From NCBI RefSeq assembly GCF_039655865.1, contig NZ_JBBYXL010000002.1, positions 496,001 through 560,000 of the forward strand: a DNA stretch of 64,000 nt, written 5' to 3'. Positions 6,842-28,071 of this stretch are shown piece after piece. The DNA comes from Prosthecobacter sp. SYSU 5D2 (GTDB lineage: Bacteria > Verrucomicrobiota > Verrucomicrobiia > Verrucomicrobiales > Verrucomicrobiaceae). The notes under the pieces were generated by a model. It had not been told where the DNA came from, made no database searches, and saw nothing but the letters and a program-made list of their open reading frames with translations. A program made the position numbers and the translations under genes. Each line of letters begins with the position of its first letter. The stretch's first letter is position 1.

Positions 6842-8404
6842 ATGACTGTACGTCACCTCCTTCTGGCCCTGGTTTTGTCATCCGCCGCAGGCAGCCTTTC
6901 CGCTGCGCCGAAGCCGCCTAACATTCTGTTCATCTTCACAGATGACCACTCCTACAAGACGCTGTCCTGCTACCTGGAGGCCATGCCTGGCGTGCGCACC
7001 CCGGCCATGGATGCGCTGGCCGCCAGCGGAGTGCGCTTCAGCCATGCTTATATGGGGGCCTGGTGCATGCCCTCCCGCGCCACAATGCTGACCGGCAGGC
7101 ATCCTCACGGCATTGAGTCCATGCGCATGAGCGGCAAGTATCCGGGCAGCGAATACGATCCGAAGCTGACACCTTTCTTTCCGGCTGAGTTCCGCAAAAA
7201 CGGCTATCAGACAGCCCACATTGGCAAGTGGCACACGGGGACGGATGCCGGCTATGGGCGGGACTGGGATTACCAGATCGTCTGGAACCGGCCGAAGTAT
7301 CCTGAGAATGCCGGGGCCTACTACACGGGGCAGATTTTGGAGGTGAATGGGGTGAAGGCGGATGCGCCGAACCCTGACTACTCCACGGATAATTATACGA
7401 AGTGGGCGGCGGAATACATCCGGGGGGAGCACCGGGCGGCGGATAAGCCGTGGTATCTGTGGCTGTGCTATGGCGGGGTGCATGGCCCGACGACGCCGGC
7501 GAAAAGGCACAAAGGTCTGCACAAGGAGGACAAAGTGACCGTCCCGGCGGATATTTTGGGCCCGCGTCCAGGCAAGCCTGACTATCTCAACGACACCCAG
7601 GCCTGGAGGAAAGACAAAGAGGGCCGCATCGTCCCGCAGAAGAGCGGGAAGACCTTTGGCGACAATGCCAAGAAGGCCCGCCCCTATGAAGACCATATCC
7701 ATCAGCTCAGTGACTGCGTGCAGTCCCTGGATGAGGGGGTGGCGGAGGTGATGAAGGCGCTGAGGGAAAGCGGGCAGCTGGAGAATACCCTGGTGGTATT
7801 GACCGCAGACCAGGGCTTTGCCACCGGGGAGCACGGACTGCGCACCAAGCTTGCTCCGTATGATGCTGCCTATCGCAGCCCGCTCATTGTCTCCATGCCG
7901 GGGACGGTGGCTGCTGGGAAGGTGTGCACGAAGCCGGTGAACGGAACGGATCTGGTGGCGACCTTTAGCGCCATGGCGGGCATCCCGCTGCCGTGGGAGG
8001 TGCATGGGCGGGACATCACGCCTTTACTTAAAGAGCCAGAGACTGCCGCCTGGCCGTATCCCTGCTATTATGAGGGAACAGGAAATCTGTACGGCAGCGA
8101 TGTGACGCAGGTTATGAAGACCGATGCCAAGGAGGCCGCCTACCACAACGTTCCCTGGTATGCAGCGCTCAATGACGGGCAGTATAAATACATCCGTTAC
8201 CTGACCCCCGGAGAGACAGAGGAACTCTACAACCTGCAGGCTGACCCGGAGGAGCTGACCAACCTGGCGGACGAGCCAGCGCATCTTGCCACCCTGGAAA
8301 AACTGCGTGCTGCGGCGGTGGCGGAACTGCGCCGCACGAGTGCGGGTTATGCAGAACTGCTGCCTCCAAGCCGCCAGATGCAGGCAGCAGCGGAGAAGAA
8401 CTGA
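6842..8404 (+). CDS. Secreted sulfatase, CxPSR type
   Basis: A 520-residue arylsulfatase-superfamily enzyme that hydrolyses a sulfate ester, probably on an algal or animal polysaccharide. A signal peptide occupies residues 1-22 (LLLALVLSSAAGSLSAA). The metal-binding pair D34-D35 lies in FIFTDDHSY. The active-site motif C75-M-P-S-R-A-T-M-L-T-G is the canonical sequence whose cysteine is converted to formylglycine. HIGKWHTG carries the conserved Lys/His, and LTADQGFATGEHG the second metal and catalytic site. The C-terminal part (LYNLQADPEELTNLADEP) is typical of family S1. The start ATG at 6842 follows the secretin gene by 72 bases. Downstream it converges with the M42 peptidase gene over a shared hairpin. 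No maturation enzyme is encoded in the window; the substrate cannot be named. Confidence 0.93.
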   Translation: MTVRHLLLALVLSSAAGSLSAAPKPPNILFIFTDDHSYKTLSCYLEAMPGVRTPAMDALAASGVRFSHAYMGAWCMPSRATMLTGRHPHGIESMRMSGKYPGSEYDPKLTPFFPAEFRKNGYQTAHIGKWHTGTDAGYGRDWDYQIVWNRPKYPENAGAYYTGQILEVNGVKADAPNPDYSTDNYTKWAAEYIRGEHRAADKPWYLWLCYGGVHGPTTPAKRHKGLHKEDKVTVPADILGPRPGKPDYLNDTQAWRKDKEGRIVPQKSGKTFGDNAKKARPYEDHIHQLSDCVQSLDEGVAEVMKALRESGQLENTLVVLTADQGFATGEHGLRTKLAPYDAAYRSPLIVSMPGTVAAGKVCTKPVNGTDLVATFSAMAGIPLPWEVHGRDITPLLKEPETAAWPYPCYYEGTGNLYGSDVTQVMKTDAKEAAYHNVPWYAALNDGQYKYIRYLTPGETEELYNLQADPEELTNLADEPAHLATLEKLRAAAVAELRRTSAGYAELLPPSRQMQAAAEKN

Positions 8405-10493: not shown

Positions 10494-12911
10494 TCAATAG
10501 CTCCCCAGCGCCTGCTTCTGCATCAATTCCACGCCTTGTTCGCCGACGGGGATCCAGAGGTCCTGGGGCGCAGTGTTGGTGGCACGCTCCACGGGCAGGA
10601 TGAGGTTGATTGGCGTATCGAAAGAGGCCACGGAATTTAGCTGGCCGGTGACGGGGGCGATGGAAGCGACCTCAAAATGGCCGGGGCTGCTGGCCAGCAG
10701 GTGCCCGCCGATGCTCTGCAAGAGGATGGGCAGGGCATTGGTATTCCAGGCGGAGGCCTGCGAAAGCCGGCCGGTCATGGCATCATAGCGGATGCTGACC
10801 ACACCTGGGCGGCCGGTTTCGCGGGCGAGATACAGGCCCGCTTCATCCATGCTGGCTGCTGCATCAAAGGCAGTGGCGGTCACGTAGTCACTTAGCAGGC
10901 TCGCTTTCACCCCGTCATAGGCGCTGGCATGGACCACGCGGGTGGGGCTGAATCCGGCACGGAGCATCAGCTCGCTTTGCGTCACCAGCACCGCCCCTTG
11001 GGAATCCGCAAGGCGCACCCCCAGCAACTGGCCTGGAATGGAAACGGCATCGCGCAGCAGGGGAGTTCCAGAGCGGAAATCCACCACTTGCAGCCAGGAG
11101 CGTATCTCACCTGCACGGGGGCGCAGGGGTACTTTTATTTCAGGCGCTGCGTGGCCCGCCGGGCTGCTGCCTTCAACATGGTCGTAGCTGAAAAAGACAA
11201 AACCTCCGGCAAAGGTGGCGGGTGAAACATGCATCACCTGAGCCTGGACAGGAAACACCTGGGCCTCCTCGGCGATGAGCGCATCTTTGCCCAAACGCAG
11301 CGGGCAAAGGGCCATCACCACGGAGCCTGCCCGAGTTTGAGGCGCAGCGCTGTTTTGAATGACATTCGGATCCTTCCACCAGTGCCAGGATTCTGGTTTC
11401 GCCGGGATAAACCAGACCAGGGTAGCTGCATCCACCCATAGCGGTTGCACCTTGGCAAGATTCAGGCCCCCTTCATCCAGGCCATCCAGATCCTGTTCCT
11501 GCGTGGACAGGACGGTGATCGCAGCGGTGTCATTGAGGGTCAGCATCCAGGTGCGCAACCGGGACGGCTGGCTGGCTGTTGCCGGGAGCCATTGGGCGAT
11601 GAAAATGCGGTCCTCCTGGCGGCTGATGCCCACCACCTGCCCCTGGCCCAGGGGCAGCTCTTCCAGCAGTTCTTCCGGGGCGATGGCAGGCGTGAGGCGC
11701 AAGTGGGCCGGGGGCGCTTCAATTCCCTCTCCTCCATCCTCCACCTGCAGCAGATAATCACCGGCGGGGATGACGCGGTCAGTTCTCCAGAACAGCGTCA
11801 TTTCTACAGGCAGCTCGGTTGGGTCGCCGGCATTTTGGGCCTTCAGATTCCTGCCGCCGACGCTCAGTTCATATCCCATCACCAGGACGGGCGGGCGTTT
11901 GGCCGGCTGCGTCACCAGTCCGCCAGCGCCTCCTTCCACGGGGACTTCGTGGAGGCGTTTTTGGCCGGCTTCACGTACGCTGACCATCAGACGTCCGTCC
12001 TGGATACGGAAAGCGGACCTGTTGCCGGCAAAGGTCGTTTTGCCGGCGATCTTGGGCTTCTCAAGATGTATCAATTCCAGCCGTGTTAAAAGCGTCGAAC
12101 GTCCCTTTTTGGCGGCCTGGACCGAGCTTAAAATTTGCAGTTCGGTGCTGCTGCGATTGAGCACGGCATCGGTCATCTGCCCCTCCAGCCGCAGGCTGCC
12201 GGTCAGCATGGGCTCGCCATGCTGGATGTGGATGAGAAGCAGCATCAGAGCTCCCGGATGCTCCTTGCTGGTGGATGGACCTATCAGCAGCACCTCGGTC
12301 CCGGCCGCATTGAGGACAAACATTCTTTGAACCTCCACCGGCACTCTCAGGCTGCCGGTGCGCAGAGGATTTGTGGGATCGCTCACATCCAGCACCTGCA
12401 GCCCGCGTGCGGCATGACTGTAAAACAGACGCGTGCCGCGCAGTTCCCAGTTTTCCGTTTCTGTCGCCGGGCTTTGGGTAAGGGTGGTCGGGGCTTTGGG
12501 GCTGCTCTTCAGCCGGTCCAGGGCTTTGGAAACCGGCACTTCAAAAGCGGCCGCCGGGCGGGAAAAGCTGTGCTTCGCGTAAGTGAACCGGCTGGGAAAT
12601 TTCGGCGTGCGATAGCCCAGCACCCGCACTTCATCATCAGCCACACCTACTGGCAGGGGAAAAGAGACATCGCGCATCTGCTCGCGGTTCAGCGTGCGCG
12701 GATACAGTACCGCTAACGGCTTCCAGCCAGGGCCGCTTTTGCGTTCCAGCACCACCTGGTGATAGCTCAGGGCCATCGGCACGGACAGGGCATCGCCTGT
12801 GCGCGTGGTGCGCAAGGTCGCGGGCGCACTCGCAGGCGTGGCGGCAGTAAGGACCGGAACGGGCAGGAACGTCAGCAGGACAGCGATGAGCGCGTGGCGG
12901 AGGGGGGGCAC
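10494..12911 (-). CDS. Large secreted protein of unknown function, possible beta-propeller
   Basis: An 805-residue protein with a clear signal peptide (LIAVLLTFLPVPVLTAATPA). I do not recognise the family with confidence. Near residue 165 it has FYSHAARGLQVLDVSDPTNP, the kind of strand-turn found in LVIVD-type and other secreted beta-propellers. Many later blocks alternate short hydrophobic strands with 'G-T-x-L-L' or 'D-x-x-G' turns, which would suit repeated blades. Residues 50-130 instead look like a beta-sandwich. No catalytic motif, membrane segment beyond the signal peptide, or C-terminal anchor is visible. It stands alone between the acyltransferase and sulfatase genes, and its neighbours do not suggest a role. 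Export to periplasm or cell surface is inferred from the signal peptide. Confidence 0.7.
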   Translation of the reverse strand: MPPLRHALIAVLLTFLPVPVLTAATPASAPATLRTTRTGDALSVPMALSYHQVVLERKSGPGWKPLAVLYPRTLNREQMRDVSFPLPVGVADDEVRVLGYRTPKFPSRFTYAKHSFSRPAAAFEVPVSKALDRLKSSPKAPTTLTQSPATETENWELRGTRLFYSHAARGLQVLDVSDPTNPLRTGSLRVPVEVQRMFVLNAAGTEVLLIGPSTSKEHPGALMLLLIHIQHGEPMLTGSLRLEGQMTDAVLNRSSTELQILSSVQAAKKGRSTLLTRLELIHLEKPKIAGKTTFAGNRSAFRIQDGRLMVSVREAGQKRLHEVPVEGGAGGLVTQPAKRPPVLVMGYELSVGGRNLKAQNAGDPTELPVEMTLFWRTDRVIPAGDYLLQVEDGGEGIEAPPAHLRLTPAIAPEELLEELPLGQGQVVGISRQEDRIFIAQWLPATASQPSRLRTWMLTLNDTAAITVLSTQEQDLDGLDEGGLNLAKVQPLWVDAATLVWFIPAKPESWHWWKDPNVIQNSAAPQTRAGSVVMALCPLRLGKDALIAEEAQVFPVQAQVMHVSPATFAGGFVFFSYDHVEGSSPAGHAAPEIKVPLRPRAGEIRSWLQVVDFRSGTPLLRDAVSIPGQLLGVRLADSQGAVLVTQSELMLRAGFSPTRVVHASAYDGVKASLLSDYVTATAFDAAASMDEAGLYLARETGRPGVVSIRYDAMTGRLSQASAWNTNALPILLQSIGGHLLASSPGHFEVASIAPVTGQLNSVASFDTPINLILPVERATNTAPQDLWIPVGEQGVELMQKQALGSY

Positions 12912-12991: not shown

Positions 12992-14638
12992 TCACGGCTT
13001 CCTTTTACCCTGGCCTTTGCCTTTGCCCTTGCCCTTAGCCGCTGGCTTGGGCTGGAGGTGGACGGTCTTTTGGACGAGGGTGGAAAATTCATCGGTCTGC
13101 TGTTGCCAGACGGCTTCCAGTTCCTTCACCTTGTCGGGCATTTTGGCGGCGAGATCATGGGCTTCAGCGCGGTCAGTTTTCAGGTCGTAAAGCTCCCAGG
13201 CATCGCCTTTGGCGGCCACCAGTTTCCAGTCGCCCACGCGCACGGCGCGGTTGCCTTCATGCAGCCACCAGAGGGAATCGCGGGGGATGGTTTCGTCTTT
13301 GGCAAAGGCGGGCAGCAGGCTCTTGCCGGGGGCTTCTGGCATTGCCTCGCCATTCCATTCCTTGGGCTTCTCCACTCCGGCGATTTCCAGGATGGTAGGC
13401 ACGATGTCCACCACATGGGATGGCGTGTGGCGCAGCTCTCCGCGTGCGGGGATGCCTACGGGCCAATGGGCGATCAATGGGGTGCTGATGCCGCCTTCGT
13501 GCACCCAGGTTTTGTGGCGGCGGAAAGGGGTGTTGCTAGCGCTGGAGAAGCCGGGTCCCAGGCAGAGATAGGTCGCGGCGCTGCCGGGTGCGGCCTGCGG
13601 ATCATGGCCGCCGTTGCGCACCATGATCTCGGCGCTGGCGCCGTTGTCGGAGGCAAAAAAGATGACGGTGTTTTCATAGGCGCCCATGTCCTTGATCTGC
13701 TGCACGATGCGGCCGATCTCCTTGTCCATGCGGTCCACCATGGCGGCATGGATGGCCATTTTGGTGGCCTGAAAACGGCGCTGTTCATCGGTCAGCGTGT
13801 CCCAGGGCAGGGGGCGGTTGATCTCGCCGGGGCCGAGCTTTTCAAAGGCATCGGGGAAGTCATAGGGCGGGCCCACATCCTCCTCCAGAGCGGACAGCTC
13901 CGTGTTGTGGATGCCCATCTCTTTTTGCTTTTTAAAGCGGGCTTCGCGCATGGCCTCCCAGCCTTTCAGATACTTGTCGCGATAGATGGCGATGTCCTCC
14001 GGCAGCGCATGCAGGGGGAAGTGCGGGGCGATGAAGGGAATGTAATGGAAGAAGGGTTTGTCTGCGTGTTTGGCGGCGTGCTCCTTCAGGCAGTCAATGG
14101 CGTGGTCGGCGGTGGCGATGGTGGTGTAGTAGCCGGTTTCGTTCTCGGGGGCATTGACGGGCACGTCGTTGATGGCATTGCCTTTGGAGCTGAAGAAGTT
14201 CCCTTGGTTGCGGGTGTCCAGGGAGCGGTCGAATCCGGCTTCCAGCACCGGGCCGTCAATGTGCCACTTGCCGCTGTGATAGCTGCGGTAGCCGGCGGGT
14301 TTGAGGTAGTCTGGCAGCAGGCGCGCCCAGGGCTGGCGCACGCCGCGGCCACCGCCGCCCAGGCCGGGCAGCTCGTCCCGGTGGATCTGCTGCGCGTAGT
14401 AGCCGCTCATCAGCGCCCCGCGCGTGGGCCAGCAGCGGGCGGTGTTATAAAACTGGGTAAAGCGCAGCCCGTTTTCCGCCAGGGAATCCAGGGCGGGCGT
14501 GGCGATGTCACCGCCGTAACAGCCGAGGTCGGAGTATCCCAGGTCATCGGCGAGGATGAAGACCACATTCGGTTTGTCCGCCGCTGTCGCTGTGAGCAAG
14601 GACAGGGAGGCTACGAGGAGGGAAAAGAGGACGCGCAT
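12992..14638 (-). CDS. Secreted sulfatase, CxPTR type, with Lys/Gly-rich tail
   Basis: A sulfatase of about 548 residues. Start 14638 gives MRVLFSLLVASLSLLTATAA, a clean signal peptide; upstream in-frame ATGs would only lengthen it. Metal ligands D31-D32 lie in ILADDLGYSDLGCYGG. The formylglycine site is C69-W-P-T-R-G-A-L-M-S-G, the accepted Ser-to-Thr variant of CxPSR. SGKWHIDGP and FFASDNGASAEI supply the other active-site residues, and ELYDLKTDRAEAHDLA the typical C-terminal subdomain. The last 18 residues are a run of Lys, Gly, Pro and Arg (KGKGKGKGQGKRKP), a low-complexity basic tail not needed for catalysis that might bind anionic polymer or envelope. It lies divergent from the DMFase-like gene, with about 90 bases between starts. 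Confidence 0.92.
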   Translation of the reverse strand: MRVLFSLLVASLSLLTATAADKPNVVFILADDLGYSDLGCYGGDIATPALDSLAENGLRFTQFYNTARCWPTRGALMSGYYAQQIHRDELPGLGGGGRGVRQPWARLLPDYLKPAGYRSYHSGKWHIDGPVLEAGFDRSLDTRNQGNFFSSKGNAINDVPVNAPENETGYYTTIATADHAIDCLKEHAAKHADKPFFHYIPFIAPHFPLHALPEDIAIYRDKYLKGWEAMREARFKKQKEMGIHNTELSALEEDVGPPYDFPDAFEKLGPGEINRPLPWDTLTDEQRRFQATKMAIHAAMVDRMDKEIGRIVQQIKDMGAYENTVIFFASDNGASAEIMVRNGGHDPQAAPGSAATYLCLGPGFSSASNTPFRRHKTWVHEGGISTPLIAHWPVGIPARGELRHTPSHVVDIVPTILEIAGVEKPKEWNGEAMPEAPGKSLLPAFAKDETIPRDSLWWLHEGNRAVRVGDWKLVAAKGDAWELYDLKTDRAEAHDLAAKMPDKVKELEAVWQQQTDEFSTLVQKTVHLQPKPAAKGKGKGKGQGKRKP

Positions 14639-14730
14639 GAGTGCCATGAAAACGACGGTCACGGGCGGCTCTTGCGTCTGCCTCCAGTTTGCCGAAAGGA
14701 ACCTGGGGCGAGGGGCTTATCTTGAAGACG

Positions 14731-16143
14731 ATGAACCGCATTCAGCAAGAGAACGCCCTGGAAGGAAGCCGCGACTGGCAGTTGACGCGCATGCGGCTGG
14801 ACAAGACGGGCGGTTTCCGCAGCCCGTACATTGAAGGATACTGCTCCAGGCAATCCGTGCAGGCGGGGGAAACTCTGGACGTCTTTGTCAGCACGGCCCC
14901 TGCGGCGCGCTTTAAGATCGAGATCTTCCGCACGGGTTATTATGGCGGACGCGGGGCCAGGTTGATGGCTGAACTGGGCCCGTTTGAAGGCAAGGCGCAG
15001 CCGGTGCCGGAGCCGGATGAAACGACGAGGTTGCGGGAATGCCGCTGGGAAAAATCACACACGCTGACCATCCCGGAGACGTGGGTGAGCGGGGTTTATC
15101 TTGGACGTTTGACGACGCTGCCGGAGACGGAGGACCAGCCTTACTGGCAGAGTTATGTGGTCTTCATTGTGAAGGATGAGCGGCCTGCGGACATTCTTTT
15201 GCAATGCAGTGACAATACCTGGCAAGCGTATAACCGCTGGCCGGATGACTATTCGCTTTATACCGATCCGCGTGGTGGCCAGGGGCCGCTGGCGCATGTG
15301 AGCTTTGACCGACCTTATGCGAAGTACGCGCAGATTTATGAGAATCCGCAGTCGGTGGGCAGCGGGGAGTGGCTGTGCTTTGAGTATCCCATGGCCTACT
15401 GGCTGGAGCAGCAGGGTTATGATGTGACGTATTGCTCCAATGCCGACATGGTGACGCCGGACCGGGGGCTGAAGTGCAAGACCTTCATCAGCATCGGCCA
15501 TGATGAATACTGGGACATCCGCCAGTTCACCAGCGTGGAAAAGATGCGGGATGAAGGGGTCAATCTCCTGTTCCTTTCCGGCAATTCCGTGTGCTGGGTC
15601 ACACCCTTTATGGACAATGCCAAAGGGGAGGCCAACCGGCGCATCTTTCGTGGCGGGCCGTATGGTGCCAGCAACCAGTGGGCGCAAAACCGCGAGGACA
15701 ACCACGGTCCTTTCCCGCATCGTGGCCCGGATGAAGGGTATCTGATGGGCGTGCGCAACATCCGGCCCGTCAATGGCGGCGGCGACTGGACCTGCGTGAA
15801 GCCGGATCACTGGCTCTTTGAAGGCACCGGCATGAAGGCCGGGGAAAGCGTGCCGGGCCTCATCGGCTGGGAATATCATGGCGACCCGCCATCGGATCTT
15901 GAGGGAGTGGAGGTCATCGCCGCTGGCACGGCCTGGCAGGGGGGCAAGGTGCCGCAGCAATGGGCGGCGGTCATCTTTCCGGGACCGAAAGGGAACTTTG
16001 TTTTTAATGCCTCCACCATCTGGTGGGCGCAGGCGATGAGCAAACCGCCAGGCCACATGCCGGTCTGGAGCCACTATTCCCGCCCGCATGGACCCGATGA
16101 CCGCATCCAGCGCATCACGGCAAATTTGCTGAACCGGAAGTGA
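14731..16143 (+). CDS. N,N-dimethylformamidase large-subunit-like protein
   Basis: About 470 residues, no signal peptide. The sequence matches the C-terminal domain of the large subunit of N,N-dimethylformamidase, an iron-dependent amidohydrolase. Characteristic stretches are FRTGYYGGRGARLM near 75, SGVYLGRLTTLP, CSDNTWQAYNRWPDDYSLY near 165, FEYPMAYWLEQQGYDVTYC near 225, ISIGHDEYWD near 255 and FNASTIWWAQAM near the end. The true enzyme is much longer (about 760 residues) and has a small partner subunit; neither the extra region nor the small subunit gene is present here. It is therefore safer to call this a family member with unknown substrate. The ATG at 14731 is preceded by GAAGACG; an earlier frame start at 14689 has no family support. 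It precedes tatD by 57 bases. Confidence 0.72.
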   Translation: MNRIQQENALEGSRDWQLTRMRLDKTGGFRSPYIEGYCSRQSVQAGETLDVFVSTAPAARFKIEIFRTGYYGGRGARLMAELGPFEGKAQPVPEPDETTRLRECRWEKSHTLTIPETWVSGVYLGRLTTLPETEDQPYWQSYVVFIVKDERPADILLQCSDNTWQAYNRWPDDYSLYTDPRGGQGPLAHVSFDRPYAKYAQIYENPQSVGSGEWLCFEYPMAYWLEQQGYDVTYCSNADMVTPDRGLKCKTFISIGHDEYWDIRQFTSVEKMRDEGVNLLFLSGNSVCWVTPFMDNAKGEANRRIFRGGPYGASNQWAQNREDNHGPFPHRGPDEGYLMGVRNIRPVNGGGDWTCVKPDHWLFEGTGMKAGESVPGLIGWEYHGDPPSDLEGVEVIAAGTAWQGGKVPQQWAAVIFPGPKGNFVFNASTIWWAQAMSKPPGHMPVWSHYSRPHGPDDRIQRITANLLNRK

Positions 16144-16200: not shown

Positions 16201-16992
16201 ATGTTTTTCGATACGCACACGCACCTGGGCAGCCATAAGTTTGATGAAGACTTGCCCGCTGTTTTGGACCGGGCCCGTGCGGCCGGGGTGACGCGCATGA
16301 TGGCCCCGGCGACGGATCTTGCCAATGCGCGCAAGCTGCTGGCCATCGCGGAAAAGGAGCCGGATGTGCGGGTCGCCGTGGGCATCCATCCTTGTGATGT
16401 GGACAGCGTATCGGGCGAGGCTTGGATCAACGAACTGCGTGACCTGGCCCGGCATCCCAAGGTGGCGGCCATTGGCGAGATTGGCCTGGATTATTTCCAT
16501 GCGCCGCCGGAGGGATTCGACCTGGATGGATGGAAACTGCACCAGGCCCGCTGCCTGCATTTGCAACTGGAGCTTGCGGCAGAACTCGGCCTGAACGTGG
16601 TGCTGCATAACCGCGAAAGCTGGGAGGATCTGACCGCCATCGTCATGCCCTACAGCGGCCGCCTGCGTGGTGTGTTTCATTGTTATACCGGCACGCTGGA
16701 GCAGGCACAGCCGCTGCTGGATGCCGGCCACCTTATTTCCTTCACCGGCATTGTGACGTTTAAGAATCCCGGTCCGGCGGGAGAAACGGTGCGCCAGGTC
16801 CCTGCGGGCCATTACATGCTGGAGACGGACGCACCGTACCTGGCACCGGTGCCCTATCGTGGGAAACGCTGCGAGCCCGCCTATGTGGCGGATACGGCGC
16901 GGGCGGTGGCGGCACTGCGCGGACAGGCTGTTGAGCAGGTGGCCAGTGACACCAGCATCACTGCGCAGAGCTTTTTCAAAGGTTTTTGCTGA
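16201..16992 (+). CDS. tatD: TatD family metal-dependent hydrolase
   Basis: A cytoplasmic amidohydrolase-fold protein of 263 residues, the usual TatD length, related to 3'-5' DNA/RNA exonucleases and D-tyrosyl-tRNA repair enzymes. Metal-binding motifs occur in the expected order: FDTHTHLGSHKFD at residues 3-15, AIGEIGLDYFHAPPEG near 90-105, VLHNRESWED near 137, FHCYTGTLEQA near 159, and LETDAPYLAPVPYRGKRCEP near 207-226. The ATG at 16201 places the metal-binding DTHTH right at the N-terminus, as in all family members; the frame extends upstream to 16153 without support. The gene ends just before an intergenic repeat. Confidence 0.93.
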   Translation: MFFDTHTHLGSHKFDEDLPAVLDRARAAGVTRMMAPATDLANARKLLAIAEKEPDVRVAVGIHPCDVDSVSGEAWINELRDLARHPKVAAIGEIGLDYFHAPPEGFDLDGWKLHQARCLHLQLELAAELGLNVVLHNRESWEDLTAIVMPYSGRLRGVFHCYTGTLEQAQPLLDAGHLISFTGIVTFKNPGPAGETVRQVPAGHYMLETDAPYLAPVPYRGKRCEPAYVADTARAVAALRGQAVEQVASDTSITAQSFFKGFC

Positions 16993-17011
16993 AAGCGTCC
17001 GGAGGCCCGCT

Positions 17012-17040
17012 CCGCCGCCTTCCAGCAAGCCTTCGGTAAA
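17012..17040. repeat. 29-bp exact copy of the 3' end of the GH26 gene
   Basis: The 29 bases from 17012 to 17040 (beginning CCGCCGCCTTCC, ending TTCGGTAAA) are identical to 18179-18207, the last coding stretch of the GH26 gene downstream. Here they are not part of a plausible gene. This looks like the scar of a duplicated or replaced gene end and directly abuts repeat copy 1. Confidence 0.85.
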
Positions 17041-17041
17041 G

Positions 17042-17180
17042 CCAAGGAGTGAGGGCATCCTGCCCTCAGCTCCCATGCCCAAAGGACTTCCGTCCCCTAT
17101 CTTAGGGTTGGGCACAACCCTGGGACCCCATTCCCTAGACCCACCCTCCACGCACCACCCCATCGAGGACGTGTCGGTTA
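17042..17180. repeat. Intergenic hairpin repeat, copy 1
   Basis: About 139 bases that recur in diverged form at 18738-18882. Two hairpins are visible: GAGGGCA-TCC-TGCCCTC at 17051-17067 and AGGGTTG-GGCA-CAACCCT at 17104-17121. Between them is AAAGGACTTCCGTCCCC, also shared. The stem arms are kept in both copies while loops differ, so structure seems to matter. In one frame it reads 'EGILPSA...', a short spurious ORF type. This fills the gap between tatD and the GH26 gene. Confidence 0.8.
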
Positions 17181-17232
17181 AACTCGGCAGTCCCCTTTAG
17201 ACTCCGCACCGCTCCTCGCTATAGCAGCCCTC

Positions 17233-18225
17233 ATGCACAGACGCCCCTGGCTTCAAAAAGTACTCCTCATCGCCATATGCGTGTCTCTGGCCTTGTCGGG
17301 CGCATCTTCGGAACCCGCCCCCCAGCCCGCTCTCGGAGTCTATGGGGAAAACTCCATGCAGCGCGTCCTCGACTTCGAAAAATGGCTCGGCCGCCCCGTG
17401 GACCTCATCCTCTGCACCGTGGACTTCCAAAAGTGGGAAAACTACCGCTATGCCGACTGGCTCAGCCAGACCGTCTATGGCGCACGCGGCCACCGTCGCC
17501 TCGTTTATGACGTCCCCATCATCATCACCGGCGCCACCTATGCCGCCGCCCGCGCCGGGGATTACGACGCCCACTGGCAGTGCCTCGCGGATTCCATCCT
17601 CGCCAACAACCCCGGGGCAGGGGACATCGTCATCCGCCCCAGCCACGAGATGAATGGCGATTGGTTCCCCTGGGGCGTCGGCGGCTCCCGCCAGGCCATG
17701 ATCCCGGACTTCATCGCCTCCTGGCACCGCTTCCACCGCGTCTTTCGCAGCGTCAAAGGCGGCCACCGCTTCCGCTTCAGCTTCTCCACCTCCGAAGGCG
17801 CCACCGACCCCCGCCCCATGTGGCCCGGGGACGACTACGTGGACATCGTCGGCCACGACCTCTACTGGAAGCCCAAGTCCATGGGCGGCGAAGGCTGGGA
17901 GACCGACGACCCCCAGGAAGCCTGGGCCCTCCGTATCCGTACCGATGGCACCGGCTACAACGCCTGGAACCTCGCCGGCATGCACGCCTTCGCCCGCGCC
18001 CATGGCAAACCGTTTCAAATAGACGAATGGGGCGTCTGGGGTCCCCGCTCCGCCCCCTTCATCCAGTCCCTCGCCGCCTGGATCAAAGCCAACCACATCC
18101 CCTCCCACACCTACTGGGATTCCGATGCCGCCTACCCCGGCCAGCTCTCCACCCGCCCAAAAGAATTGCCCGCCCCCACCGCCGCCTTCCAGCAAGCCTT
18201 CGGTAAAAAACCAAGCGAGCAATAA
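17233..18225 (+). CDS. Secreted GH26 family glycoside hydrolase (beta-mannanase-like)
   Basis: A 330-residue secreted (beta/alpha)8-barrel glycanase. The signal peptide is residues 1-26 (VLLIAICVSLALSGASS). The acid/base glutamate E139 lies in RPSHEMNGDWFPW, which matches the GH26 motif 'R..HE.NG.W..W'. The nucleophile E265 lies in PFQIDEWGVWG. SASWHRFHRVFR-type helices and DYVDIVGHDLYW complete the clan GH-A pattern. GH26 members act on beta-mannan or mixed-linkage glucans; which one cannot be told. The final 15 codons contain the 29-bp sequence repeated upstream of the gene, and the SUKH gene starts 2 bases after its stop. Strong use of C-ending codons contrasts with the AT-rich gene that follows. 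Confidence 0.87.
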   Translation: MHRRPWLQKVLLIAICVSLALSGASSEPAPQPALGVYGENSMQRVLDFEKWLGRPVDLILCTVDFQKWENYRYADWLSQTVYGARGHRRLVYDVPIIITGATYAAARAGDYDAHWQCLADSILANNPGAGDIVIRPSHEMNGDWFPWGVGGSRQAMIPDFIASWHRFHRVFRSVKGGHRFRFSFSTSEGATDPRPMWPGDDYVDIVGHDLYWKPKSMGGEGWETDDPQEAWALRIRTDGTGYNAWNLAGMHAFARAHGKPFQIDEWGVWGPRSAPFIQSLAAWIKANHIPSHTYWDSDAAYPGQLSTRPKELPAPTAAFQQAFGKKPSEQ

Positions 18226-18226
18226 T

Positions 18227-18673
18227 ATGACATTTGAATTCTGGTTCCCGAACCCTCCCGTTGAGGAGTCAGTAATCATGAGTTTTGAGACCTTTGTGGG
18301 ATGTAAACTCCCCGACAGCTACAGGGAGTTCTTGGCGCTCTCCAATGGTGGGGAGAAGCCCAAACTGGAAAACTTTACCGTCCTCGAAACTGGAGAACGA
18401 ACAATGCTATCCACCCTTTATTCGTTAGCTCCAGATGGCAAAGGGGAGTTGTTCGACGAATATCTGGCTTTAAGGCAGGAAATACCAGCAGATTTGATAT
18501 CCATAGGCCATGATATTGGCGGCAATAAGTTATGTTTAGCGATTCAAGGAAGCGAACGTGGCAAGCTCCTTTTTTATGATCACGAGTTAAGGTCATTCAA
18601 TCGAAAAAGTACCCGCAAAAATTTCAATGTGTGCGCGAATTCGTTTGTCGATTTTTTGCAGGGTTTAAACTAA
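18227..18673 (+). CDS. SMI1/KNR4 (SUKH) family protein
   Basis: A 148-residue cytoplasmic protein. SUKH members are best known as immunity proteins against polymorphic toxins, though many are orphans. Family features are the helix LPDSYREFLALSNGGEKP near 28-45, the strand LETGERTMLSTLYSLAP, the segment DLISIGHDIGGNKLCLAIQG near 95-114, RGKLLFYDHE, and NSFVDFLQGLN at the end. The ATG at 18227 lies one base after the GH26 stop; the frame extends 34 codons further upstream inside the GH26 3' end, but those residues are Pro-rich shadow sequence. Base composition is visibly more AT-rich than that of the GH26 gene, a sign of separate origin. No toxin gene is adjacent. Confidence 0.82.
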   Translation: MTFEFWFPNPPVEESVIMSFETFVGCKLPDSYREFLALSNGGEKPKLENFTVLETGERTMLSTLYSLAPDGKGELFDEYLALRQEIPADLISIGHDIGGNKLCLAIQGSERGKLLFYDHELRSFNRKSTRKNFNVCANSFVDFLQGLN

Positions 18674-18737
18674 TAACAGTGCTGGCCAAATCCGGTCAAT
18701 CATCGCTGCCCTCAGCTTACCCAAGCCACCGGTGCAA

Positions 18738-18882
18738 CCAAGGTGTGAGGGCATCTTGCCCTCAGCCTCCCCCAACAAGCCCAAAGGGCTTCCGTCCCCA
18801 AGCCCAGGGTTGGCACAACCCTGGGACCCCATGCCCCGGATCCACCCTCAATGCCAACCCCAACCGGGGTTGCGTCGGTTAC
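18738..18882. repeat. Intergenic hairpin repeat, copy 2
   Basis: Diverged second copy of the element at 17042-17180. Its hairpins are GAGGGCA-TCT-TGCCCTC at 18747-18763 and CAGGGTTG-GCA-CAACCCTG at 18805-18823, with AAAGGGCTTCCGTCCCC between. It ends GCGTCGGTTA like copy 1 (GTGTCGGTTA). The two copies lie in the same orientation and flank the GH26-SUKH pair. Confidence 0.8.
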
Positions 18883-19111
18883 ACGCCGCCCCTCGATTGC
18901 CCCTGCATTATAACGGTCTTCTCTTACGCCAAGTGCCGCAACGCCTTTTGACGGTCGAGGATGGCAGGGGGAGCGGGAGTTTTAACGCTGCGCCTAGTCG
19001 GAGCGGGTGATTTACGTGCTGAATATCAATGCTTTAAGAGGTTGGTATTATAATTGCCTGGCAATTTTTTCTCCGGCAATGCCATGAGCGTAACCATCTG
19101 GAATGGCCAAT
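18883..19111. other. Non-coding stretch between repeat copy 2 and the SLATT gene
   Basis: No convincing gene. The right half is AT-rich and contains a short palindrome, ATTGCC-T-GGCAAT, followed by a T-run near 19053-19072, just past the 3' end of the minus-strand SLATT gene. It is too tight to be a normal terminator hairpin. Short open frames here are the repeat read through and are not supported. Confidence 0.4.
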
Positions 19112-19798
19112 TCAATTACTGGCTAAAGGAATTGATTGAGGCCATGTAAGCCAAGCAAAAACGGCAAAGGCCACAGGAGGCAGTCCCATGCAAAGATAAT
19201 AATATGAATAATGGCATAGAATAAGTCTAGCTTTAATTTGCAAGACATTTACTATAGTTAGATTGTGATCTTCATAGGAAGGTTTAGATGCCTTAAAAGA
19301 TTCAAAATCGATATCTTCGTGGTTATCTGATCGACGTAGTATTTCATCATATTGGTCTGAGAGTAATTCAACAGCATCGAGGAAAATAGGAGACGATTTA
19401 TCTTTGTGCCTAGACTTGAGAGCACGAAGCTTTTTGTAGAGTTCAGCAATTGCGAGTCCACTTTGATGAAAGGTGTAGGTCCGAACGCTGTAATTTTGCG
19501 AGGATTCAAGCTGACTCACCACAAGAATAATGATGGATAGCGCAGAACTGATAAATAAGATTACCTGCTCCGTAGCACCCTGGGAAAATTGTGGGAGCAT
19601 CGTAGTGATAAGGGAAAAAATTATCACATAGGCCGATAAAAACGAAACAGCTCTAGACGAAAGATTGTATTTCTTTTGGCACCGTGCCGCAGCGTTGAAC
19701 CTGCTTTTATAGGTGGACCAAAGCTTGTAGTTCAGTTCGCGGTCATAGCTTCCCTGTGCATAGAGTGGTACCTTTTTGCTTTTTGGCTCTTCTGACAT
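19112..19798 (-). CDS. SLATT-domain membrane protein (SMODS/SLOG-associated 2TM type)
   Basis: A 228-residue membrane protein. The N-terminal amphipathic region YDRELNYKLWSTYKSRFNAA (18-37) followed by two closely spaced transmembrane segments, SFLSAYVIIFSLITTML (52-68) and ILFISSALSIIILVVSQLES (80-99), and a long charged helical tail (YTFHQSGLAIAELYKKLRAL) is the SLATT arrangement. SLATT proteins are proposed pore-forming effectors that accompany nucleotide-sensing or reverse-transcriptase defence modules. A third hydrophobic stretch lies near 195-222. The start at 19798 (MSEEPKSKK) is chosen over 19828 because the longer form adds a hydrophobic tag with no family match. No SMODS, SLOG or reverse-transcriptase partner is adjacent; a DUF2971 gene faces away 620 bases upstream. 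The region is AT-rich, which suggests horizontal transfer. Confidence 0.75.
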   Translation of the reverse strand: MSEEPKSKKVPLYAQGSYDRELNYKLWSTYKSRFNAAARCQKKYNLSSRAVSFLSAYVIIFSLITTMLPQFSQGATEQVILFISSALSIIILVVSQLESSQNYSVRTYTFHQSGLAIAELYKKLRALKSRHKDKSSPIFLDAVELLSDQYDEILRRSDNHEDIDFESFKASKPSYEDHNLTIVNVLQIKARLILCHYSYYYLCMGLPPVAFAVFAWLTWPQSIPLASN

Positions 19799-20418
19799 GA
19801 ATGCATAAAGGCATAAAATCATCATCATGTCTAGTATGTATTCTAAATAAAATATCGAAACAGTTATGCGGCATGCGTTCTGATGGATCCGGATTTTTAA
19901 GGGTATTCTTTGGAAAAGAGGGCGTTTTGCTGTATTAGCGACACCATGAGCGTTTCACACCACCAGTACCTGCCACCGCATAAACCACCTTCCTGCCGCC
20001 AAACCACGCTTGTGTCGATTCACCTAGAAAGACACCGTTCGCCCCCATTATTCGCATTATGTGGAGCCAGCGAACACATTCCCCTCACCCTTGCCCTCAT
20101 GACCTCCCTGCAACGTTGCATTCAGAGGCATGCCTGGAGCCCATCACTATGTCATTCTTCCCCCGAGATCTAACACTACCCAAGGCCCCATGCACAATCC
20201 GTCATCTATTAAATTTTCCGGGTTGCCATATTTAAGTCCAAACGCTATCGCTAGGAAGAATCCGGCACCTACTCAGTCAGCACTCTCGGCAAATTGGCCT
20301 GATAGAGGAACCGGAGGTATACCAGATATGTGTCCATATGACTTGGAGAACCATTGAAAATCCTCTTTTTTTAATCTGCCAAAATGATCAGTTTGCGAAG
20401 TATCATTTTGAATTTGCA
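19799..20418. other. Divergent intergenic region between SLATT and DUF2971 genes
   Basis: About 620 bases with no supported gene. It is AT-rich near both gene starts and mixed in the middle. Just upstream of the SLATT gene on the minus strand is TATTTTATTTAGAATA (around 19837-19855), a possible -10 region without a clear -35. Two short plus-strand open frames (19910-20173 and 20130-20357) have Cys/His/Pro-rich, non-protein-like composition and no ribosome-binding site. Confidence 0.45.
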
Positions 20419-21294
20419 ATGAAAGATCCACCGGATGAGCTGTATCATTACACCTCTGGCGAATCACTGCTGGCGATAATTAATTCCCAATGCCTTCTCG
20501 CAACTGAACGAACTTTCCTTAATGACCCCAAAGAGTTCCAATGGGGTCTAGGAGTTTTTGAAGAATATCTAAATGCAAGCAAGAAAAAGTATTCGTCTGG
20601 TTTTCTTGAACAAATCTCATACTCGCTTGCGGACAAGATTCAAGATGATTTGCGTATCTTTGTCGTCAGTCTTTCTGCCAGACCCGATCTTTTAAGTCAG
20701 TGGCGAGCTTATGCGGCAAATGGCACAGGTGTTTCCATTGGATTTGACGGATCGATACTTCGTGACCGCTCTGGTTTCGGGGAATACGTCATGCGCGATT
20801 TGGATCCCGATAAGATGCCTCCAGATTTTGTCTTGTGCTATCATTTACTTCCGGTTGTATACGAAACGAAAGATCAGCATAAATTATTAAAAATATTTAT
20901 TGACGCGGCACACACCTTCTGGATGGCTCTAGAAGATCAAACTGACCCCGATAGCCTTACACTATTTAGATTCATGTGTCGTTACAGGGCAAAGGAACTG
21001 CTTATAGCCTTCAAGAGTGCAACATATAAAGAAGAATCAGAGTGGCGATTGGTGGCCACAGTTCATAAAACCAGCAGTAAGATCAACTACCGGTATGGAC
21101 AATTCGGCGTTACTCCATACGTAAAGCTGAATATCAGCCGTCGCGAGGAATTACCAGGCCTCAAATTGCCGATAACCAAAGTGTACGTTGGGCCAAAATC
21201 TTCAATAAAGAACAATACCTTGGGTGTTGAAATGCTATTAGCAAGTAACGGTATCCAGGCACCTCTCATCTTCTCTAATATTAATTATAGATGA
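20419..21294 (+). CDS. DUF2971 domain protein
   Basis: About 291 residues, cytoplasmic. The N-terminus DELYHYTSGESLLAIINSQC followed by LLATERTFLNDPKEFQWG fits the DUF2971 signature (LYHYT.......L.S....LNDP.EF). The central RPDLLSQWRAYAANGTGVS then GFD matches its 'W..Ya....GvciGFd' block, and YKEESEWRLV the C-terminal one. The function of this family is not established; members are frequent in accessory and phage-defence regions. The ATG at 20419 puts the conserved LYHYTS at residue 8; the frame is open to 20338, where an alternative ATG would add 27 residues. Base use is AT-rich like the SLATT gene and unlike the flanking operons. It is transcribed away from the SLATT gene. Confidence 0.85.
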   Translation: MKDPPDELYHYTSGESLLAIINSQCLLATERTFLNDPKEFQWGLGVFEEYLNASKKKYSSGFLEQISYSLADKIQDDLRIFVVSLSARPDLLSQWRAYAANGTGVSIGFDGSILRDRSGFGEYVMRDLDPDKMPPDFVLCYHLLPVVYETKDQHKLLKIFIDAAHTFWMALEDQTDPDSLTLFRFMCRYRAKELLIAFKSATYKEESEWRLVATVHKTSSKINYRYGQFGVTPYVKLNISRREELPGLKLPITKVYVGPKSSIKNNTLGVEMLLASNGIQAPLIFSNINYR

Positions 21295-26010: not shown

Positions 26011-27162
26011 TCAGGCGGCGAGGGCGCCTTCATTGAGGATGGCGGCGTCCCAGTCTTTCCAGACGGCGTCCAGGCCCTGGGCTTGCAGCATGGCGGCCAC
26101 TTCCGCCGGACTGCGCAGATCGGCGATGCCGAACTGGCCTTCGGCTTTGGCATCGGCTTTCTTGGCAGCGGTATCCAGTTCCACGCGGCGGCCGCGCACG
26201 GTCTGGTGCAGGTCGTCGCTGCCGGCACCGGTGTAACCGCCGGGCTCCGTGTGGCTGCCGGCGCTCATGACGGTGACGCCGAGCGGGGCCAGGGCATCGC
26301 GCAGGGGGGCAGGCTCGCGGGTGCTCATGACGATGCCCACCTCCGGGAAGATGAGGCGAAAGGCGCACATCGTCTGCACCAGCGCCCAGTCCGGAAAGGA
26401 GGTCTTCGGGTGAAAGCCGCCCGCTGCAGGCCGCAGGCGGGGGAAGGCGACGGTGAAGCTGGACTTCCAGCAGTGCTTGTAGAGATGCTCCAGATGCGCA
26501 GCCAGCCGCAGGGCCTCCAGCCTCCAGTCGCTGAGGCCAAAGAGGGCGCCGATGCCGATGCGCCGGAAGCCGCCTTCATACCCGCGCTCCGGGCAGGCCA
26601 GCCGCCATTCGAAATCCTTCTTCGGCCCGGCAGTATGCATTTCTGCATACAGGGGGCGGTCATAGGTCTCGTGGTAAACCACCAGCCCCTCGCACCCGGC
26701 TTTCACCATACGCTCATATTCCGGGGCCTCCATGGGGCCGACCTCGATGCCGATGGTGGGCACAAAATCCCGGATGGCGCGGATGCACTCTTCCAGGTAG
26801 CCGTTGCTGACGAACTTGGGGTGCTCACCGGCGACTAACAAAATGTTACGAAAGCCCTGCTCCGTCAGGTGGCGGGCCTCTTTGATGACCTGGTCCACGG
26901 TCAGCGTCACCCGCATGATGCTGGCATTGTCGCGGGAAAAGCCGCAGTAGGAGCAGTTGTTCACGCACTCGTTGGAAACATACAGCGGAGCGAACATGCG
27001 CATCGTACGGCCAAAGTTCCTCCGCGTTACTTGGCGGGATTCGCGGGCCATCGCCTCCAGCTGGGCCGGGGATTTGGTTTCCAGCAGGCTCCAGAAACGC
27101 TCCATCAGGGGCGATTTGCGCGCCGGGAGGGCATCGAGGACGGGGGTAAAGGTGGTCAGCAT
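26011..27162 (-). CDS. thiH: ThiH 2-iminoacetate synthase (radical SAM tyrosine lyase)
   Basis: A 383-residue radical SAM enzyme that cleaves tyrosine to dehydroglycine (2-iminoacetate) and p-cresol for the thiamine thiazole ring. The [4Fe-4S] cluster motif C66-x3-C70-x2-C73 lies in NECVNNCSYCGFSRDN. LVAGEHPKF and IGIEVGPMEAPEYERMVKAG mark the barrel, VYHETYDRPLYAEMH matches the ThiH-specific 'YQETY....Y...H' block, and GSHTEPGGYTG near the end is also typical. The N-terminus from 27162 shows the usual helical lead. The gene is divergent from proB and upstream of thiS. The identity of the enzyme is secure; the missing neighbouring thiG is the only oddity. Confidence 0.93.
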   Translation of the reverse strand: MLTTFTPVLDALPARKSPLMERFWSLLETKSPAQLEAMARESRQVTRRNFGRTMRMFAPLYVSNECVNNCSYCGFSRDNASIMRVTLTVDQVIKEARHLTEQGFRNILLVAGEHPKFVSNGYLEECIRAIRDFVPTIGIEVGPMEAPEYERMVKAGCEGLVVYHETYDRPLYAEMHTAGPKKDFEWRLACPERGYEGGFRRIGIGALFGLSDWRLEALRLAAHLEHLYKHCWKSSFTVAFPRLRPAAGGFHPKTSFPDWALVQTMCAFRLIFPEVGIVMSTREPAPLRDALAPLGVTVMSAGSHTEPGGYTGAGSDDLHQTVRGRRVELDTAAKKADAKAEGQFGIADLRSPAEVAAMLQAQGLDAVWKDWDAAILNEGALAA

Positions 27163-27288
27163 TTAAGGGCGGGTTAACAATATACCCCGCCCTGCCCGTG
27201 GGTGCAACCTGCGGTCAATCGCGGAGGTCGGGTTAAAACATCCCGTTGCCTGCCGCGCCGCTTGCGGCATACTGCTCGCCCTCTTTCC

Positions 27289-28071
27289 ATGTCCACGACG
27301 GCACCCCAGCGCATTGTTCTTAAATTCGGCACCGGCATATTGACCAAGCTTCATGCGCCTGAGCCGGATCCCGTACAGCTTCGCAAGCTGGTCGAGGCCG
27401 TGGCCCTGCTCAAGCGTGCCGGGCATAGCGTCGTCGTCGTCAGCAGCGGGGCCGTGGCCTCCGGCCTGAAGCCGATCAACCTGACCGAGCGCCCCACGGA
27501 CATGACCACGCTGCAGGCCCTGGCCGCCGTCGGCCAGACCCACCTCATGCATGCCTATGAGAACCTCCTGCGCGATCATGACCTCCACGTCGCCCAGCTT
27601 CTGGTCACCCATGAGGACCTGGAAAATTACGACCGCGCCCGCCGGGTGAAAACCACCCTGGAGCGCCTGCTGGAATTCCCGCAGGTGGTGCCCGTCATCA
27701 ATGAAAACGACAGCGTCGCCATTGAGGAACTTCGCTTCGGGGACAACGACAAGCTCTCCTCCCGCGTCGCCCGCCTGTGGCAGGCGGACTTGCTGCTGCT
27801 GCTCACCAGCGCCCCCGGCCTGCTGCGGGACATGAACTGCCCTCAAGATGGTCCCATTCCTGTGGTGGAAGATGTGGACGTGGTCATCCACCATGCCCAG
27901 GAGGAAAAAACCAAGCTCGGTACCGGCGGCATGATCTCCAAGCTGCGCGCCGTCCAGGATGCAGTCAATGGTGGTGTGGAATGCATCATCGCCAGCGGCC
28001 GCCATGCGGAGCAGATCCCGGAGGTGGTGGCAGGCGGCGGTATCTGCACGCGCTTTCCGGTCAGGAAGTAG
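27289..28071 (+). CDS. proB: Glutamate 5-kinase, short form without PUA domain
   Basis: An amino-acid kinase of 260 residues that phosphorylates glutamate in the first step of proline synthesis. The N-terminus QRIVLKFGTGILTK holds the phosphate-binding K-x-G-T/S. VVSSGAVASGLKP, PVINENDSVAIEELRFGDND near 140, LLTSAPGLL and KLGTGGMISKLRA near 210 are the expected family blocks. The protein ends right after the kinase domain, so the C-terminal PUA domain of the E. coli enzyme (367 residues) is absent; short forms occur in other bacteria. The start at 27289 fits the family; the frame extends upstream to 27202 without support. No proA is nearby. It converges with a minus-strand gene 41 bases downstream. 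Confidence 0.92.
   Translation: MSTTAPQRIVLKFGTGILTKLHAPEPDPVQLRKLVEAVALLKRAGHSVVVVSSGAVASGLKPINLTERPTDMTTLQALAAVGQTHLMHAYENLLRDHDLHVAQLLVTHEDLENYDRARRVKTTLERLLEFPQVVPVINENDSVAIEELRFGDNDKLSSRVARLWQADLLLLLTSAPGLLRDMNCPQDGPIPVVEDVDVVIHHAQEEKTKLGTGGMISKLRAVQDAVNGGVECIIASGRHAEQIPEVVAGGGICTRFPVRK

Follow-up and report, generated by a model that had tools for sequence, protein, structure and literature searches.

Diverged composite palindromic repeats and a GH26 gene-end scrap beside tatD in Prosthecobacter sp. SYSU 5D2

The locus examined here lies in a stretch of 64,000 nucleotides (the window), part of contig 2 of the 5.87 Mb, 26-contig genome of Prosthecobacter sp. SYSU 5D2. Its forward strand carries tatD, encoding a TatD-related DNase (16201-16992; Pfam PF01026, E 1e-71), a GH26 glycoside hydrolase gene of 330 aa (17233-18225; PF02156, E 3.9e-13) and a SUKH (SMI1/KNR4) gene of 147 aa (18230-18673; PF09346, E 4.8e-15). 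These are followed by SLATT_5 on the minus strand (19112-19828; PF18160, E 2.2e-43) and by DUF2971 (20338-21294). With GC contents of 44%, 40% and 42%, respectively, SUKH, SLATT_5 and DUF2971 stand apart from the other genes measured (60-65%; GH26, 65%), which suggests that they were acquired separately. The three low-GC genes are neighbours at 18230-21294, and SLATT_5 matches PADLOC models of RT-associated SLATT proteins. The GH26 gene shows a strong coding-strand C bias, with a third-position GC skew of -0.59 as against -0.33 to +0.29 in 15 other GH26 genes. It also has a long branch in the GH26 tree, where it sits on an open fork, and we set this tree aside for questions of origin.

Between tatD and GH26 lies a scrap of coding sequence on the forward strand. 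The original prediction that 29 bases of the GH26 3′ end are exactly repeated after tatD, ahead of the first of two flanking repeats, was borne out: the 29-mer at 18179-18207 (forward strand) recurs identically at 17012-17040. The match widens to 34 of 36 positions over 17005-17040, beginning 12 nt past the tatD stop, and its score of 64 compares with at most 31 in 2000 shuffles. Read in frame, 17005-17052 encodes ARSAAFQQAFGKAKE and a stop, a GH26 C-terminus, the GH26 gene itself ending in APTAAFQQAFGKKPSEQ and a stop; the in-frame stop of the scrap overlaps the head of the repeat, which also supplies the last codons before it. Match and frame together mark the scrap as derived from a GH26 3′ end. 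At E ≤ 0.001, neither the rest of the genome nor 55 relatives gave a further match. A search for such gene-end scraps at 18 sites (two in the window, 16 elsewhere in the genome) returned this one only, at the first window copy; other sites gave a 16-mer, a 14-mer and, beside the RAYT-type gene described below, the repeat's own sequence. A third GH26 tail, ahead of the second repeat, was rejected as not significant, its score being reached by 94 of 2000 shuffles with the repeat head and by 511 of 2000 without it. A template/variable repeat pair of the retroelement type was set aside as improbable for the gene-end copy, with only 36 bases shared and no reverse transcriptase among six neighbouring proteins by Pfam.

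Two direct repeats, 17043-17189 and 18739-18890, lie in the same orientation on either side of GH26 and SUKH. Without gaps they resolve into three families, 83, 45 and 38 nt long, whose members are spaced 1696-1702 apart. A 139-base element with two hairpins had been predicted on both sides of the gene pair; the two copies and their direct orientation held up, whereas the palindromes number four per repeat, not two. Each repeat is a composite of two dispersed palindrome families, A and B. Part A (forward strand; 17043-17070 with its hairpin at 17050-17068, and 18739-18766 with its hairpin at 18746-18764) is identical between the copies at 26 of 28 positions. Part B (forward strand; about 17069-17189 and 18767-18890) is identical at 90 of 120 aligned columns, or 75%. 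Copy 2 keeps all four palindromes, those of its B part lying by fold prediction at about 18777-18791, 18803-18825 and 18855-18872; copy 1 retains only the A hairpin intact, all three of its B palindromes being damaged. Allowing up to three mismatches, the A hairpin pattern occurs at two sites in the window against 0.04 expected by chance. Rfam gave no match at E ≤ 1 over 16900-19100.

Part A, which reads CAAGG[AT]G and then TGAGGsCATCCTGsCCTCA (s = G or C), corresponds to half of a REPIN. With few exceptions, the other genomic A sites examined consist of two inverted halves, 2-8 bases apart in the aligned copies. In this genome a covariance model gave at least 54 matches on both strands, corresponding to about 27 sites, and it matched in at least 22 of 56 genomes, these counts being lower bounds from 102 candidates scored per genome. 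In an alignment of 15 REPINs, chosen from those at hand and not including the window copies, both sides of the stem had changed in 24 cells, where shuffling gave a mean of 8.3 and none of 500 shuffles reached the observed value; 96.3% of cells were paired. Short palindromes, compensatory stems and many copies per genome are likenesses to REP/REPIN sequences and their RAYT (TnpA-REP) transposases as described in PMC3733652 and PMC6006769. So are the predominance of inverted pairs of about 55 bases in the A family and the occurrence of same-tag pairs around a candidate RAYT-type gene. This gene (contig 11; L250:4360-4986) lies between REPINs that begin with CAAGGAG and end with CTCCTTG, and its best NCBIfam match is REP_Tyr_transpos (REP-associated tyrosine transposase) at 67.4 bits, below the cut-off of 80. 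Part A differs from the systems described there in the tetranucleotide 5′ of its hairpin foot, which is GGAG in copy 1, GGTG in copy 2 and GGAG, GGTG or GGCG elsewhere in the genome, as opposed to GTAG or GTGG. It differs further in that both window copies are single halves instead of two inverted ones, and in that the RAYT-flanking REPINs carry the tag of part A on a different stem. The two REPINs around the RAYT-type gene (L250:4284-5053) are nearly identical to each other, and a similar one lies about 3 kb off, at 8156-8217. As a separate observation, in one named Verrucomicrobiaceae record (L014:4178-5960) GH26 is preceded, at a distance of about 200 bases, by an open frame that at its start looks by eye similar to the RAYT protein of our genome.

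In its intact form, part B consists of the palindromes AAGCCCAAAGGGCTT, CCCAGGGTTGGCACAACCCTGGG and GCAACCCCAACGGGGTTGC, with stems AAGCCC/GGGCTT (h1, six pairs), CCCAGGGTTG/CAACCCTGGG (h2, beginning with C-G) and CAACCCC/GGGGTTG (h3, seven pairs). Model R1 scores 116.7 bits at copy 1 and 124.8 bits at copy 2, high by construction since both are among the five copies from which it was built. The B model matched in at least 34 of 56 genomes, a lower bound, as is the count for this genome, from 63 candidates scored per genome. According to the original prediction, copies at hundreds of unrelated intergenic sites, together with the 29-mer elsewhere without GH26, would point to a chance arrangement; the genome yielded at least about 27 REPIN (A) sites and at least six B places, and the 29-mer at no other site (E ≤ 0.001).

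In eight of 29 loci taken from relatives (L208-L236), two B copies in inverted orientation enclose a gene that encodes a 151-aa protein. The gene is intact in the units L217:1501-2232, L223:1501-2221, L227:1501-2235, L229:1501-2214, L231:904-1621 and L216:833-1630, and broken in L226 and L234. Four of these proteins were scanned, and all four exceeded the Pfam cut-off for Y1_Tnp (IS200-like transposase). Because inverted B copies flank Y1_Tnp genes in this way, B is, to judge by its arrangement in relatives, the end element of a putative Y1 transposase unit of the TIRtron kind. As described in PMC3733652 and PMC6006769, TIRtrons or TIRYTs consist of a Y1 transposase gene bounded by terminal inverted repeats, which in addition occur dispersed as a family; the motif GGGGWSAS is reported for these repeats. 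B resembles them in flanking a Y1 gene in inverted copies and in being dispersed without the gene, including as tight inverted pairs with no space for a gene between (e.g. L220, L230); the likeness is one of arrangement. A difference from those units is that the window copies of B stand alone, with no Y1 gene between them. We found one Y1 gene related to the B-linked transposase in our genome, on contig 8 (41% identity), with no B adjoining; within the 19-kb stretch examined around this gene, the only B lies some 8 kb off.

B may also bear some likeness to CGTC-tagged repeats. Palindrome h3 is followed by CGTC or TGTC in 29 of 39 B copies and h1 by CGT or TGT in 37 of 51, the tag being on the 3′ side. 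In the text of the 2013 survey (PMC3733652), CGTC repeats are described as having stems 8-9 pairs long, the first two pairs, adjoining the tag, being complementary A/T pairs; the survey reports them without a flanked or dedicated transposase gene. The B stems depart from that description: they do not start with such A/T pairs at the tag, h1 has only six pairs, h3 has seven, and h2 begins with C-G. The tags and the inverted B copies around the Y1 gene in several relatives would be the grounds for reading part B as a CGTC-type family with its own transposase, an idea to which we give very little credence. Among the titles and abstract openings listed for REPIN/RAYT, TIRYT/TIRtron and palindromic repeats, none describes the A or B family in Prosthecobacter; absence from print is not claimed.

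Named records with close GH26 genes (68-73% identity) come mostly from Verrucomicrobiaceae and their neighbours, including Prosthecobacter and Brevifollis gellanilyticus. In five loci of relatives GH26 neighbours an ada/alkA gene, and four of these five also have a tRNA-Ser gene close by; in the remaining relatives its location varies. An ada/alkA query on our genome found only a 50% homologue, on contig 4. In the three closest relatives by tatD (G018, G019 and G034; 88-89% protein identity), GH26 is absent at E ≤ 1e-20, and the next gene after tatD is one that we take from its sequence to encode an L,D-transpeptidase. The original prediction had looked to close relatives for a tatD-SLATT junction without GH26 and SUKH; none was found, since in these three the transpeptidase gene follows tatD. 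No polymorphic insertion or empty site was seen. The L,D-transpeptidase gene of our own genome lies elsewhere (C11:9950); inspection by eye of the 800 bases upstream revealed no trace of GH26, A or B, and the B model found no B in a 20-kb stretch around it. In G019 and G034, the counterparts of the genes at 10494-12911 and 12992-14662, together with tatD, form a block whose orientation with respect to the genes at 26011-28071 is reversed, which makes the tatD junction a rearrangement point. Set against G019 and G034, a DMFA2_C-domain gene (14689-16143) between a sulfatase-like gene and tatD is present only in the window.

Neither SUKH nor tatD was next to GH26 in any of the neighbourhoods tested (14 named loci, seven loci of relatives and ten further ones, with flanks of 1.5-5 kb where the contig allows, many being the same genes under other handles). 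A GH26-SUKH cassette was also rejected: with ten protein queries, none of the window's other genes was found beside GH26 in these 14, seven and ten loci. On this comparison, GH26 and SUKH are evidently not a conserved pair.

The two flanking repeats share an ancestor. In a tree of 15 B copies, picked by hand as against 52 matches listed, their B parts group together in 187 of 200 bootstraps. Copy 2 is 72-73% identical to unlinked B copies (contig 8 and G034), about as close as it is to copy 1 (75%). Given B parts only 75% identical and a copy 1 that has lost its B palindromes, the duplication would be old; we regard the flanking repeats as an old local duplication, copy 1 of which has since decayed, and not as a pair produced by recent recombination. 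Divergence is lower in the scrap (34/36) than in the B parts (90/120), with a Fisher p of 0.0096, or of 0.030 with part A (26/28) added, both values being optimistic since the scrap is short and its 36 bases were chosen for their match. The scrap thus probably arose later than the repeats, and its lesser divergence makes one shared event unlikely.

We consider it probable, with some reserve, that the locus holds a composite A+B repeat duplicated locally long ago, to which a scrap was added later, in a patchwork at the rearranged tatD junction. Part A would be a solitary half of a REPIN, of the kind moved by RAYTs (REP-associated Y1/HUH transposases), and part B an element of three palindromes, inverted copies of which bound a Y1 transposase gene in relatives as a TIRtron-like unit; both would have been moved by Y1 transposases. 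After the local duplication of the composite, copy 1 would have decayed, and a short piece of the GH26 3′ end would later have been copied or converted next to it. The GH26-SUKH-SLATT stretch would then be a patchwork at the tatD junction and not a cassette bounded by working repeats.

Of the alternatives, the one that survives best is a former tandem GH26 copy beside tatD, deleted to its last dozen codons and leaving its 3′ flank, repeat copy 1, behind. Such a copy would explain why the scrap directly follows tatD in frame as a GH26 C-terminus, with its stop at the repeat head, and why the repeat copies are sisters. However, GH26 is single copy in all 18 carriers among 386 genomes of the order, none of the 14 named loci searched has an A or B repeat after GH26, and the scrap is less diverged than the repeats with which it would have been duplicated. 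We therefore think this history unlikely, and recombination between the repeats, as a route for the loss originally suggested, is further at odds with the 75% identity of the B parts.

A considerably less probable course, also suggested by the original prediction, is that homologous exchange at the repeats brought in GH26 and SUKH together. The direct orientation of the repeats around both genes and the absence of GH26 from the three closest relatives would fit, but the B parts are only 75% identical, with copy 2 about as close to unlinked copies. Further, the two genes differ in GC (65% and 44%) and are not found together elsewhere, and the scrap would be left unexplained. About as improbable is a separate origin of the two repeats, each from its own insertion of dispersed elements at a gene end: although A and B are both dispersed in this genome and REPs are reported mostly downstream of coding regions (PMC3733652), part A adjoins B only at the two window copies out of 38 B copies, and these are sisters in the bootstraps given above.

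Returning to the patchwork with an old A+B duplication, the flanking arrangement seems to reflect ordinary wear of the genome and not a new system. It offers a caution against taking direct repeats and a gene-end scrap for a mobile cassette where the copies of the repeat are no longer alike. A puzzling arrangement thereby resolves into two recognisable palindrome families of Verrucomicrobiota that appear linked to Y1 transposases of the single-strand-DNA kind, B being present in at least 34 of 56 genomes, and the palindromes of A and B each gain candidate cognate transposases, which are testable.
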